NCBI RefSeq assembly: GCF_000019525.1
Contig: NC_010506.1
Coordinates: 5,146,001 to 5,210,000, forward strand
Length of the DNA stretch: 64,000 bases
Direction of reading: 5' to 3'
Origin: Shewanella woodyi ATCC 51908
GTDB lineage: Bacteria > Pseudomonadota > Gammaproteobacteria > Enterobacterales > Shewanellaceae
In this document: one piece after another, positions 58,332-64,000 of the stretch
How the letters are laid out: each line of letters opens with the position of its first letter
Numbering within the stretch: position 1 is the stretch's first letter
Program-made: the position numbers and the translations under genes
The notes under the pieces: model-generated
Told to the model about the DNA's origin: nothing
What the model saw: only the letters and a program-made list of their open reading frames with translations
Database searches by the model: none

Positions 58332-58952
58332 ATGGAAAGGGGCACACTAGTTCGATGGAACGACGAGAAAGGCTTTGGCTTTATTAAGCCTGAAACAGGT
58401 AATGGTAAAGATGTATTTATCCATATCTCAGCTCTAAAGCACATGGCAAGAAAGCCCGTGATCGGGGATGGGATCCTGTTTTTAACTGAACAGCAAACTG
58501 ATGGAAAAATAAAAGCTATCAAGGCCAACATCGAAGGCGTTGCAGTTATCGCCTCAACGTCCAGACACCAAGCCCGCACTACTCATAACAGTAGAAGTCA
58601 CAACAGTAAGAGTCACAATAGACACAGCCGCCAATCCAAATCATCCAGTGTCATTCTAATACCACTACTTGCCATACTCGCACTCGGTATCTACGGCTAT
58701 AAAAGATTTGAAGCGCTAACAGCTCAATCAAATACACAAACACATTCCACCAATGAACCTTCACAACAACCTGCAGCGAAAATAGAATGGATTCAGCCTA
58801 AAGAGACCTTCCACTGTGAAGCAGGAAAGCTACACTGCAGCCAAATGCGCTCATGCACCGAAGCAAAGTTCTACAACCGAAACTGCCCTGGCACAAAAAT
58901 GGACGGTGATGGTGACGGCATCCCCTGCGAAATACAACATTGCGGGTATTAG
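58332..58952 (+). CDS. Cold-shock domain / excalibur-domain fusion membrane protein
   Basis: 206 residues. An N-terminal cold-shock domain has the RNA-binding KGFGFIKPE and DVFIHISAL motifs (residues 1-68), then a Ser/His/Arg linker, one membrane helix (about 105-123) and a C-terminal excalibur calcium-binding domain with DGDGDGIPCE. The nucleic-acid domain would be cytoplasmic and the Ca domain periplasmic. Domain fusions of this type are known in gammaproteobacteria without a defined role. Confidence 0.85.
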   Translation: MERGTLVRWNDEKGFGFIKPETGNGKDVFIHISALKHMARKPVIGDGILFLTEQQTDGKIKAIKANIEGVAVIASTSRHQARTTHNSRSHNSKSHNRHSRQSKSSSVILIPLLAILALGIYGYKRFEALTAQSNTQTHSTNEPSQQPAAKIEWIQPKETFHCEAGKLHCSQMRSCTEAKFYNRNCPGTKMDGDGDGIPCEIQHCGY

Positions 58953-58999
58953 CGATAAACGAGGTCAGGGGAAAACTTCTCTGACCCTGATGAATCCTG

Positions 59000-59064
59000 C
59001 CAATAACCAAAGCTTAGTAGGAGGATGAAAAACGCACAATTTATTGTGCGTGGCCCTATTTATT
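59000..59064. repeat. REP element, 65-bp unit
   Basis: Contains CGCACAATTTATTGTGCG (a perfect 7-bp stem) after AGCTTAGTAGGAGGATG. Differs from the copy at 62387-62451 at only about three positions. Confidence 0.75.
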
Positions 59065-59150
59065 TTCTATTTATTTTTTTAAGCCTCCCTGCGGCTAAGG
59101 GTTATGGATTACGCTCCCAGTAGCTATATGAAACTGGATCGCTTAAATGG

Positions 59151-61023: not shown

Positions 61024-61150
61024 CCATGTAAAAAGAGCCAGTGATCATCTTGTTGGAGTTACCAGTAGGATTGAAACACTCGAACGCCTCTCCCCGTATC
61101 AGCCATGTTTGTGGTCTCGCGGCAGAAAGGGCGTAACGGCGAGAACTTTA

Positions 61151-61170
61151 AAGCCACCCATAATAAATCA
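61151..61170. repeat. REP half-element
   Basis: AAGCCACCCATAATAAATCA matches the left half of the hairpin at 56157 with one change. The right arm is missing. Confidence 0.45.
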
Positions 61171-61199
61171 ATAACATAGCGCTAACTGAACAAGCTTTC

Positions 61200-61318
61200 A
61201 ACTTAGCCTGCCATTAAAGTTGTCAACTCGTCGATCTCACTGCCACTTAATCTGCTTTCGGCCAGTTAATGTGGTTATTTATCGGAAAAATAATGAATTT
61301 CAGGCAGGGCTAGTTAGC
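61200..61318. other. Candidate attC-like inverted repeat downstream of the transposase gene
   Basis: AACTTAGCCTGCC (61200-61212) and GGCAGGGCTAGTTA (61303-61316) pair almost fully. On the minus strand the site begins GAGCTAAC, as a cassette site would, but the other end lacks a clear GTTRRRY core. Confidence 0.3.
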
Positions 61319-61390
61319 TCAACCTATTGAAGAAAATTGAATTAAATGAGGAGTGATGTATGTGGGGGGAAGTTAAGTTACACCTGACGA

Positions 61391-62368
61391 TTAACCATCT
61401 TCAAGATACTTGCAACACTTTGCAAAGTGTCGTCGACGCTTTTGAAGGTGCTCACAAAAAGATGTTAATTCTTGCGTGTTCCCAACAGGGCCGTGAAACA
61501 GTTCACCAAACTCTGAGGTGAGCTTTATCCAGTTGTCCGATGAAATATTCAACTGCGTCAGTATCTTTGTGCTGTTAGCAGAGATAGAGCCTCGCTTATC
61601 ATTACGGATTATTCTACCCGTTTCATCTACCAACTCTAAGTAGTCTTTTAGGGCAAAATTGATGCCTTTAGGTTGATTAAGCCGCTCATCCCCAATAAAG
61701 GGCAGTAATTGAGTGGATTGCTCACCCTTCAACGCAGCATTTACTCTAAGTTGTATACTCGTGTGGTCTGAACTCTCAAGCGTATCAGCCATTTGAGCTC
61801 GAATAGGGTTGAGCTCAACATAAGCCATACAGGCCAGCACCGCCGCTTCATCAAGCAGAGCCTGACTCTTAAACCTTCCCTCCCAGAATCGGCCTGTACA
61901 CTTGTCCTCCTTATTTGCCATACGAGCAATTGGCTCATTAAGACACCTCATAAACCAAGATATATCACATAAGCGTGAGCGGTAAATGGCAACAAGGTGT
62001 TTTAACTTAGCCACTTGATACTCTTCTATCACTTCACCCTTAGCAAACCTTTGAGTCAACTCGGTACCGTTAAACAGTTGATGCCACTGTTCTACTACTT
62101 CTCTATCCGTCCAACGATTCGCTAACTCTATATCTATCTGTAATACCAAATGAAGATGATTAGACATCACCGCATAAGCCGCTACATCAATAGCAAAAAT
62201 ATCACCTAATTTGAGTAGCAGAGACTCAACCCAAGCACGTCTATAATCATAATTCTTTCCCGTAAGCTCATCATTTCCAAATAGAAAGGCACGGCGTGCC
62301 ACTCTTGAGCAACAATGGTACCAAGACGTGTCTTCAATGCTCATTTGTGTTCTTCTGGGGCGGGGCAT
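61391..62368 (-). CDS. REP-associated tyrosine transposase (RAYT, Y1/HUH family)
   Basis: 325 residues. The HUH-type metal motif is SNHLHLVL, preceded by SWYHCCSRVARRAFLFG; the catalytic Tyr probably lies in ACMAYVELNPIRA, after GRFWEGRFKSQ. These match the RAYT branch of IS200/IS605-like enzymes, which nick and mobilise REP hairpins as single strands. AGGAGG precedes the ATG. A REP element lies 19 bp upstream and two more at 59.0 and 56.2 kb, presumably its substrates. The start is 1 bp past the stop of the lipoprotein ORF. Confidence 0.88.
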   Translation of the reverse strand: MPRPRRTQMSIEDTSWYHCCSRVARRAFLFGNDELTGKNYDYRRAWVESLLLKLGDIFAIDVAAYAVMSNHLHLVLQIDIELANRWTDREVVEQWHQLFNGTELTQRFAKGEVIEEYQVAKLKHLVAIYRSRLCDISWFMRCLNEPIARMANKEDKCTGRFWEGRFKSQALLDEAAVLACMAYVELNPIRAQMADTLESSDHTSIQLRVNAALKGEQSTQLLPFIGDERLNQPKGINFALKDYLELVDETGRIIRNDKRGSISANSTKILTQLNISSDNWIKLTSEFGELFHGPVGNTQELTSFCEHLQKRRRHFAKCCKYLEDG

Positions 62369-62369
62369 A

Positions 62370-62651
62370 TTAACCTCCTACTGCTACCAATAACCAAAGC
62401 TTAGTAGGCGGATGAAAAACGCACAATTTATTGTGGGTGGCCCTGTTTATTCTTATATTTTTATTAGCGCTCATCTTTTTCATAGTACATTCTTCTACAA
62501 GAAATCCTGCTAAATCCTCAAGTTCTTTTTTGTATTTATGAGTATACGCTTCAACCTTGGCCGTATTATTTTCTATATATTCAGATTCAACAGTTGAGGC
62601 GCAACCAGTTAGAAGGCTAGTAATAATGAGTATTTTTAGTAAGTTTTGCAT
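62370..62651 (-). CDS. Cassette lipoprotein with a REP-derived tail
   Basis: 93 codons. A signal peptide with lipobox LLTGC and a helical domain (VEAYTHKYKKELEDLAGFLVEE) look genuine, but from about residue 67 the frame reads through the REP element and the ribosome site of the transposase gene, ending TAA 1 bp before its ATG. The native C-terminus was therefore probably lost or replaced. GGGAAC precedes ATG 62651, 17 bp after an attC core. Confidence 0.65.
   Translation of the reverse strand: MQNLLKILIITSLLTGCASTVESEYIENNTAKVEAYTHKYKKELEDLAGFLVEECTMKKMSANKNIRINRATHNKLCVFHPPTKLWLLVAVGG
62387..62451. repeat. REP element next to the transposase gene
   Basis: 65-bp unit matching 59000-59064 except at about three positions. 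Its hairpin is GCACAATTTATTGTGG/C type with GTAG tetranucleotide nearby (CTTAGTAGG). Confidence 0.8.
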
Positions 62652-62667
62652 AAGTTCCCTTTAAAAT

Positions 62668-62722
62668 ATAACGCCGCAATAAAAGGCAGCGGTACGCTGT
62701 CCTATTTGATTGCCTTGTTAGC
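62668..62722. other. attC-like integron recombination site 1
   Basis: Minus strand: GCTAACAAGGCAA ... TTGCGGCGTTA, pairing at the outer GTTA and TTGC blocks with the mismatched spacer usual in attC; inner hairpin CAGCG-TAC-CGCTG. About 55 bp, like a short 59-base element. It follows the kinase gene by a few bases and precedes the lipoprotein gene. Confidence 0.75.
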
Positions 62723-62728
62723 ATTTTT

Positions 62729-63238
62729 TTATGTTTCAATAACTATTGCCTCGGATAGTTCTTTACCTACTGGCGGCTCATAATAGGATTCTGTATGTTC
62801 GTACATTGCCAGAGTTACCTCAAGCGAATAAGTTTCACCTTGTACTATGTTTCGATCAAATACTCTTTTTCTTCGTATATCTTCCGGTGCTGTAATGTAA
62901 TGCAATTGGAAGTTGACGTTATTGTCAGATGCTTTCTTTCGTATCGCATCTCTTTGCGTTTCATTAGCAGCAGCCCCGTCTAATACTATGCTAATGCCGT
63001 TATCAAGTAGTTGCTGGCATACAAGCCAAATTTGGCCACGACATCGTTGATACTTCTCGGTTGCCCATTCACCTACGATTTGCATTGGTTGATTAAGCAA
63101 ACCCTCTGGTGCGTCGGGGACGAATAATTTACTGAGCCAATCATCTTCAGAGAATAGAATGGAACTCTCTTTTATTGAAAGGTCTTTTGCGTATGTTGTT
63201 TTACCGGCACCGATTGGACCGGAAACTAAATGGATCAT
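62729..63238 (-). CDS. P-loop kinase-like cassette protein
   Basis: 169 residues. Walker A GPIGAGKTT is at residues 7-15, with SILFSEDDWL and VLDGAAANETQRDAI following, as in AAA_33/zeta-toxin or chloramphenicol-phosphotransferase-like kinases. The substrate is unknown. ATG 63238 has a perfect AGGAGG and lies only 12 bp after the core of an attC site, the standard cassette arrangement. Confidence 0.8.
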   Translation of the reverse strand: MIHLVSGPIGAGKTTYAKDLSIKESSILFSEDDWLSKLFVPDAPEGLLNQPMQIVGEWATEKYQRCRGQIWLVCQQLLDNGISIVLDGAAANETQRDAIRKKASDNNVNFQLHYITAPEDIRRKRVFDRNIVQGETYSLEVTLAMYEHTESYYEPPVGKELSEAIVIET

Positions 63239-63251
63239 CTATCCTCCTAGA

Positions 63252-63353
63252 TGCTAACGCCCTGTTAACAGGCAATAAAATAGTTGGTTAAAATAGGCGA
63301 CGAAGGAGCAAAAATCAACTGTTTTTTGTCCTTGTTTAACAGCTTGTTATGCA
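63252..63353. other. attC-like integron recombination site 2
   Basis: Minus strand: GCATAACAAGCTGTTAA pairs with TTAACAGGGCGTTAGCA except for a 3-base spacer; inner arms AATCAACTGTTTT and AAAATAGTTGGTT also pair. About 100 bp, VCR-like. The stop codon TAA of the membrane-protein gene is part of the left core. Confidence 0.82.
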
Positions 63354-63781
63354 TTTTTTCTTAAATAGAGCCTAGATGCTATATATGACGCAACTAAAGT
63401 CTCAACCAAGGCCATAGGTAAAACTATTACCAGATACGACCAACTCGAAAGATTCATATTTGCCATGCCAACCCAAAATAATACAAAGAAAAAGCACCAC
63501 GACATGACGCCACTAATAACGATTGATTTAGTATTGTTGCCAAATACCTGAGCGCACAGCCAAAATAAAAATACATATAAAGCCGTAAGTAATGTGTCCC
63601 ACAAGCCCCAAATAGTAAAAATGCCCCAATTCATATCAGCAACATTTGGAACAACAGATAAATAGCTATGCATTTCCGGTCTTACAAACAGGAAGTATCT
63701 AAACACTTCAGAAGCGTTAACCCACAGACTTACAATAACTGTAATTATTATGAAATCTTTTACTAGAAGTTCTTTATTCAT
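63347..63781 (-). CDS. Four-helix membrane protein (integron cassette gene)
   Basis: 144 residues with hydrophobic segments near 10-30, 52-75, 85-105 and 115-135 and no recognised motif; the AxxF-WGIFTIWGLWDT region is Trp-rich. It sits between two attC-like sites and its TAA stop lies inside one of them, as is common in cassettes. Function unknown. Confidence 0.7.
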   Translation of the reverse strand: MNKELLVKDFIIITVIVSLWVNASEVFRYFLFVRPEMHSYLSVVPNVADMNWGIFTIWGLWDTLLTALYVFLFWLCAQVFGNNTKSIVISGVMSWCFFFVLFWVGMANMNLSSWSYLVIVLPMALVETLVASYIASRLYLRKNA

Positions 63782-63802
63782 TTTTCTTGATTACCTAATA
63801 GA

Positions 63803-63931
63803 TGCATAACGCCTGCATAACACGTTTGCTACTATGCAGATCAAGCTCAAATTTACCACTTAACACGGTAAACTCAAAGAAACCTAGAATGCCGAATGTA
63901 GCAAATCGTGTTGATGCATTTGTTATATGCG
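63803..63931. other. attC-like integron recombination site 3
   Basis: Minus strand starts TATAACAAATGCATCAACACG and ends CGTGTTATGCAGGCGTTATGC; the arms pair apart from a 3-base spacer, and GATTTGCTAC/GTAGCAAAC extends the stem. About 128 bp, the length and layout of Vibrio VCR sites. Confidence 0.82.
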
Positions 63932-64000
63932 TTCTTAAAGTCAGCTAAGTTACTTATATCAAAGCTGACCTGAAAAGCATCATTTACCCAACTATTTAGA
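63874..64000 (-). CDS. Cassette gene, 3' end only
   Basis: A minus-strand frame is open from the right edge to a TGA at 63874 and reads WVNDAFQVSFDISNLADF, a natural-looking protein end running into the attC-like site. Too short to identify. Confidence 0.4.
   Translation of the reverse strand, partial: LNSWVNDAFQVSFDISNLADFKNAYNKCINTICYIRHSRFL

Follow-up and report, generated by a model that had tools for sequence, protein, structure and literature searches.

The window analysed here is a 64,000-nucleotide stretch of the Shewanella woodyi chromosome. The earlier note had placed the distal part of an integron cassette array at its right end, and this placement is supported by attC structure and by an intI gene to the right. 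The array extends past the window in locus L009, whose coordinates equal the window position + 1 (window 63347 is L009 3348). The features are given below from intI outward, that is, from right to left.

L009 6070-7029, plus strand: intI (TIGR02249, 384.2 bits, cut-off 265)
about L009 5730: attI core, conserved, ending in GTTA and followed by the first cassette
L009 5432-5722, minus strand: first cassette gene
L009 5330-5431: attC
L009 4835-5281, minus strand: second cassette gene
L009 4732-4837: attC
L009 4405-4710, minus strand: third cassette gene
L009 4336-4441: attC
L009 3993-4307, minus strand: fourth cassette gene, a VOC-like ORF that extends past the window end
63803..63931, minus strand: attC of the fourth cassette (R1 71.8 bits, R2 47.8 bits; arm pairing)
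63347..63781 (L009 3348-3782), minus strand: fifth cassette gene, 144 aa, with its stop codon within its own attC
63251..63355, minus strand: attC of the fifth cassette (R1 102 bits, R2 93.2 bits)
62729..63238 (L009 2730-3239), minus strand: sixth cassette gene, 169-aa P-loop kinase (AAA_33 59.6 bits and Zeta_toxin 34.8 bits, both over the cut-off)
62665..62726, minus strand: attC of the sixth cassette, short form (R1 54 bits, R2 47.4 bits)
62444..62651, minus strand: remnant of the seventh cassette gene, lipoprotein-like; its ORF, 62370-62651 (L009 2371-2652, truncated), continues into the next element
61150..62443, approximate, minus strand: RAYT-like transposable element, with limits taken from the alignment with a copy at 4421 kb
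61391..62368, minus strand: Y1-type transposase gene, 325 aa, with an HLH motif
58997..59072, minus strand: solitary copy of the left end of the RAYT-like element, 92% identical to 62384-62460

An attC lies behind each of the first six cassette genes, and the one at 62665..62726 is the most distal attC found in the array. The fifth cassette gene has no Pfam or NCBIfam match. The kinase of the sixth cassette has 122 homologues, and the ORFs beside it are other cassettes.

The intI gene starts 2.1 kb beyond the window end, on the plus strand and opposite to the minus-strand cassettes, which is the canonical divergent layout. Its protein aligns over its full length with the integron integrase chain 2a3v (261 bits), and the alignment takes in the IntI-type insert region. 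A CTGT-N8-ACAG box is located ahead of intI at L009 6024. The same box was found just upstream of intI in seven of eight related integrase loci; at the eighth (L053), it lies about 1.3 kb from the integrase match, which begins only at residue 67. No such box was detected in the stretches scanned of a second integrase locus (L019) or of L109, one of the satellite loci described below. The genes that follow intI are presumably groEL and groES.

Three features of a complete integron were found at this locus, namely an IntI-subfamily integrase, bulged-arm attC behind the genes and a predicted attI beside intI. The attI core of the array is also present at the intI loci of other genomes. Judged from sequence, the locus is a small sedentary chromosomal integron of a Shewanella, with its distal half in the window, consisting of intI, an SOS (LexA) box, attI, six cassettes and a seventh that is cut. 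The S. atlantica integrase is 84% identical to the intI product of the array, and it adjoins what appear to be nitrate reductase genes (L017) instead of groEL; therefore, the integron locus is not conserved. A second integron integrase gene of S. woodyi (G000:C1:3241308-3242246; L019, L114) has several attC of its own and, in the stretches scanned, no copy of the attI core. Since two intI genes were already reported in S. woodyi in the available part of a 2008 survey (PMC2426708), the array locus itself is of a known kind and ordinary.

attC sites of the array

Several features of the window sites were confirmed in the sequence as the earlier note had described them. The 3-nt spacers are AAG/AAA and GGC, the gene 63347-63781 terminates inside the attC core at 63251-63355, and AGGAGG precedes the kinase ATG at 63238. 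All three sites lie on the minus strand, together with the minus-strand genes.

The sites at 62665-62726, 63251-63355 and 63803-63931 were recovered as attC by a rule scan, by arm pairing and by a covariance model. The rule scan covered both strands of the 64-kb window with the pattern YAAC, 3-nt spacer, arm with one bulge, 3-nt spacer and GTTR. It gave 27 loose matches (10 plus, 17 minus); the GGC 3' spacer occurred in just three, each of them minus-strand, and these coincide with the sites named in the earlier note. The covariance-model search that had been proposed gave R1 scores of 102 bits (63251-63355), 71.8 bits (63803-63931) and 54 bits (62665-62726). R1 was built from the six attC of the array; because these were its training sequences, independent evidence comes from the rule scan and the pairing counts.

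Aligned with one another, the six array attC share invariant TAACAA and GGCGTTA; their arms covary, and the 5' arm has a one-base bulge. Pairing holds in 66 of 66 base-pair cells (shuffle mean 79.7%), and 15 cells are altered on both sides, against a shuffle mean of 4.8 and a value reached in 0 of 500 shuffles. Covariation was 0.582 versus 0.116, and pairing fell to 29-43% when partners were slid by 1-3 columns. An Rfam search of the 64-kb window gave 0 matches.

The sites could also be REP-type or other inverted repeats, as a RAYT-like gene adjoins the array. This reading is contradicted by the arm pairing and the integrase match: six sites between six different genes have covarying arms, a fixed bulge and a GGC-GTTA end, and an integron integrase in canonical orientation lies 2.1 kb past the window end. 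Its probability is regarded as negligible. The expected continuation of the array to the right was borne out, with three more attC, then attI (core at about L009 5730) and then intI past the window end.

The distal edge and the RAYT-like element

The array is cut on its left side by the RAYT-like element. Homologues of 134 and 133 aa align with the seventh cassette remnant over residues 1-69 only, and the cassette is interrupted after codon 69, which makes the element the distal edge of the array. The element has imperfect inverted ends, GCCACCCACAATAAAT / ATTTATTATGGGTGGC. Its transposase scored below the cut-offs of both Y1_Tnp (20 vs 23) and REP_Tyr_transpos (38.7 vs 80 bits), and the name RAYT-like was chosen for this reason. 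The element resembles RAYT / REPtron and TIRtron systems, as presented in the accessible text of PMC3733652, in its Y1-type transposase with an HLH motif, GTAG-containing ends and inverted end repeats. It differs from them in lying below the curated cut-offs, in being multi-copy and in occurring near attC or attI more often than two other transposase families.

Two other readings of this edge were rejected. A continuation of the array to the left of the element was rejected with no GGC-spacer attC in the rule scan and no R1 or R2 match left of 62665 in the window. A simple splitting of the last cassette by the element was rejected as well; the missing half of the seventh cassette gene was not found by tblastn (E<=1) in the window and the other loci then compared.

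To the left of the element are three minus-strand ORFs without a detected attC, then the solitary end copy, and then the gene 58332-58952. The direct repeat formed by 58997-59072 and 62384-62460 brackets 3.4 kb between the RAYT-like element and this gene. A relative of 58332-58952 is also present near groEL in 3 of 10 relatives examined; therefore, the integron and its left neighbours fill a variable interval beside groEL.

In the S. woodyi genome, 9 of 12 RAYT-like copies of at least 250 residues have an attC or attI no more than 2 kb away; none was found that close to the copies at 1732, 236 and 1148 kb. The idea of an association came from this genome, and the association is treated as a side observation. 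A RAYT-centred sample of 60 loci was drawn from 19 other genomes, using the matches with the highest scores in single-contig or main contigs. In 17 of the 60 loci, an attC was found at E<=0.01, versus 2 of 30 control loci, which were 20 arbitrary stretches and 10 groEL loci (Fisher p=0.026). The RAYT-like element and the nearby attC were on the same strand in 14 of 17 cases. The distances ranged from 182 bp to 2.9 kb; therefore, no site-specific targeting was seen. RAYT-like elements and attC may merely share repeat-rich intergenic DNA. In a separate comparison, an attC within 1.5 kb was counted at 13 of 60 RAYT-centred loci and at 2 of 57 control flanks, taken from loci of two other transposase families (57 of 60 such loci used; p=0.0045).

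attI copies without an integrase

A blastn query of 350 bp, reaching from the first cassette to intI, revealed copies of attI at several attC loci. A search of the genome then gave 17 blastn matches at 15 places, one with intI and 14 without; the latter are called satellites here. None of the 14 satellite loci had an intI match within 1.5 kb. An attC was located on the expected side and strand at 13 of 14 satellites, 10 solid and 3 weaker. The attI places and their attC are as follows.

intI locus: attI of the array
5598, 484, 5699, 1384, 324, 3623 and 1629 kb: attI; solid attC in the R2 genome search, also among the earlier sites of R1, whose training set was the array only
4720 and 4382 kb: attI; solid attC in the R2 genome search (38.9-95.1 bits for these two and the preceding seven)
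3756 kb: attI; attC with R2 32.7 bits and the rule scan
5729 kb: attI; attC from the rule scan only, 10/11 arm pairs
4271 kb: attI; weak attC, R2 25.7 bits
5558 kb: attI; weak attC, R2 22.2 bits
1931 kb: attI; no convincing attC in 6.3 kb

The earlier note was right about the array; the same attI at 14 other chromosomal places and the RAYT-cut edge were not visible to it.

All 15 copies finish in the same core, AAACGCGCAAGNCGTNTATACAAATGTTA, with the 3623-kb copy deviating at three more bases. The next 29 bases past the crossover differ at each copy (mean pairwise identity 29%, maximum 59%). Upstream of the core, the intI locus enters its own promoter region, and 12 of 14 satellites instead have a common leader, which is well conserved from about 400 bp ahead of the crossover in the 12 aligned satellites. 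The 13th satellite (4271 kb) has part of the leader, and the 14th (5729 kb) is cut by a RAYT-like element. The latter element (L109 3667-5150, G000 ~5729 kb) lies on the leader side of the satellite attI, about 160 bp from the crossover, and takes the place of sequence that is present there in other attI copies.

The attI-proximal block occurs in two classes, with 10 type-A and 5 type-B copies; the satellite at 5598 kb is of type A and that at 1629 kb of type B. Between the classes, the 29-bp core is 92% identical (83-97%), whereas ungapped 29-mers of the flanks share 36, 31, 21 and 17% upstream and 28% downstream. A short site that stays alike between unlike flanks is the pattern that selection for an integrase site would leave.

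One alternative treats the scattered cassettes as the result of ordinary insertion at secondary sites of the genome (attG), and the attI-like sequences as products of chance or convergence. Scattered cassettes are indeed known in Shewanella, according to the available text of PMC9229058, and attG insertion has been published, as a title in the reference list of PMC11023631 indicates. The 29-bp core, on the other hand, reaches scores of 40-53, with 6.1 as the highest null score (20 shuffles of 64 kb), and the leader is common over hundreds of bases; therefore, chance is excluded and the attG reading is contradicted for the 14 copies, where it is considered highly improbable. For five of the attC loci scanned (L084, L086, L088, L111 and L113), in which no attI core was found, the attG reading may yet apply.

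Many attC of the S. woodyi genome are isolated. Among the best 150 of 878 candidates scored, R1 identified at least 26 attC in the genome; R2, which was trained on 33 attC, including several satellite attC after R1 had found these, identified at least 40 among the best 150 of 1824 candidates. For all six array attC, the nearest relative lies outside the array, a comparison that favours the outside with 27 candidates there and 5 inside. These relatives fit one shared pool, although the outside set is larger; the five coreless attC loci named above and the lack of a cassette gene common to the loci compared go against such a pool.

At the satellites of 484, 5699 and 1384 kb, a transposase gene is located between attI and attC. 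At four attC loci, a transposase gene directly adjoins an attC in which the first core has been lost and replaced; an identical 359-aa gene is present at L080 and L083, and an identical 318-aa gene at L081 and L085. This arrangement resembles the IS1111-attC insertion sequences covered by the accessible part of PMC11187229.

The DNA before the leaders (L262-L276) is internally repeated and recurs between loci. This repeated DNA may be the carrier of the module. A consensus promoter scan of one module (L262 1200-1900) gave one site, on the other strand, versus 1.4 in shuffles, and so lent no support to a promoter there. An Rfam search of three module loci gave 0 matches.

The S. woodyi system shares intI, the SOS box, attI, the divergent array and folded attC with sedentary chromosomal integrons of the Shewanella/Vibrio type, whose IntI is related to PDB 2a3v. 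The difference is the presence of 14 more attI copies without intI on the same chromosome. The satellite loci have attC without a neighbouring intI, which is the feature of CALIN and SALIN (attC clusters or a single attC without an integrase; PMC9229058), and they share with these the cassettes and the missing intI. However, the satellites bear the integron's own attI core, 12 of 14 with the common leader, and attI is absent from the CALIN / SALIN definition in the text available to us. In that text, 59 Shewanella genomes have CALINs and 41 have a total of 115 single cassettes, a 'peculiar amount' of scattered Shewanella cassettes is remarked upon, and attI is mentioned five times, for the general structure, for empty integrons, in a reference title and in a figure legend. 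One attI per integron, beside intI, is stated outright in the consulted part of a Treponema paper. In the literature searched, chiefly outside subscription journals, no description was found of multiple or orphan attI, or of attI at CALIN / SALIN. The dispersed attI copies are the unexpected part, and the array itself is ordinary.

Leader-attI modules in Shewanella and their meaning

Matches to a 482-bp leader-attI query occurred in 29 of 129 Shewanella genomes, S. woodyi among them; some were short or covered just the repeated DNA ahead of the leader. A continuous match over leader and attI (query 79 or less to 482) was present in at least 8 of 129 genomes, with at least 5 copies in G099 and at least 2 in G111; the counts per genome are lower bounds, as the best five or fewer candidates were scored in each. 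The intI loci match the query in the attI part alone. Neither the plasmid (72,556) nor the phage (50,697) records gave a match to the module.

At the expected crossover, 13 of the 14 loci compared have the core or a near variant of it, and L283 is out of register. Five matches stop at query 335: the type-B core is complete in two of them, a diverged core is present in two, and one (L289) lacks the crossover end. An integrase of the same type lies within 1.5 kb of 3 of 29 loci from other genomes (L298, L299 and a fragment at L295). When R2 was applied to 44 module loci (15 own, 29 other), 32 attC were found in 26 loci. Of these attC, 31 were downstream and on the same strand, with L302 and the second site of L307 so placed by their coordinates; the exception, L304, had been matched through the 48-bp upstream repeat only.

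Taken together, the satellites are probably attI platforms of one dispersed integron, in which cassettes would be integrated at any of the 15 attI in trans. In the proposed mechanism, the one matching integrase, made under SOS, would put cassettes into any of these sites, and many cassettes would thereby be able to occupy a first position. A promoter would be present at each platform, and the leader-attI module itself would have spread. Nothing known to us about the reaction would restrict the integrase to an attI in cis. The available text of PMC11023631 describes attI as recognised in double-stranded DNA and attC as a folded strand.

The alternative is that the 14 copies are relics, that is, modules or whole integrons that were copied or acquired repeatedly and whose satellites no longer recombine. 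In line with this, RAYT-like elements and other transposase genes interrupt several satellites, and the module L289 of another genome is without the crossover end of the core. Furthermore, no cassette gene was common to the loci compared (ORFs of at least 70 aa, parts of 16 loci), and transposase genes alone were shared. Modules are also carried by G062, G082, G086 and G124, in which no integrase match was found at E<=1e-60; therefore, a close relative of this integrase cannot be what serves the modules there, and relics or a different helper are indicated for these four genomes.

Several features of S. woodyi point the other way. The common leader of twelve satellites is not the intI side, so these are not simply integrons without intI, and the core is conserved across two classes with dissimilar flanks. 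Past the crossover, each site has a different sequence; therefore, recombination after copying, or many separate acquisitions, would be needed. The relic reading is thus considered unlikely for the S. woodyi copies as a whole, and platforms of a dispersed integron are preferred.

In the usual picture, expression decreases along an integron array. If the satellites work, one genome would have many first positions and many integration targets. Working satellites could also explain the scattered Shewanella cassettes noted in the available text of PMC9229058. Scans for attC only overlook leader-attI platforms, and in IntegronFinder 2.0, as far as its accessible description goes, attI detection is confined to class 1. 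The service of a remote attI in trans by the integron integrase becomes directly testable.

For the genus, the balance tips slightly towards a dispersed system in part of Shewanella, in which one SOS-controlled integrase would serve up to 15 or more leader-attI platforms, each offering a different cassette its first position. Cassettes would then be captured and expressed at more places than the head of one array.
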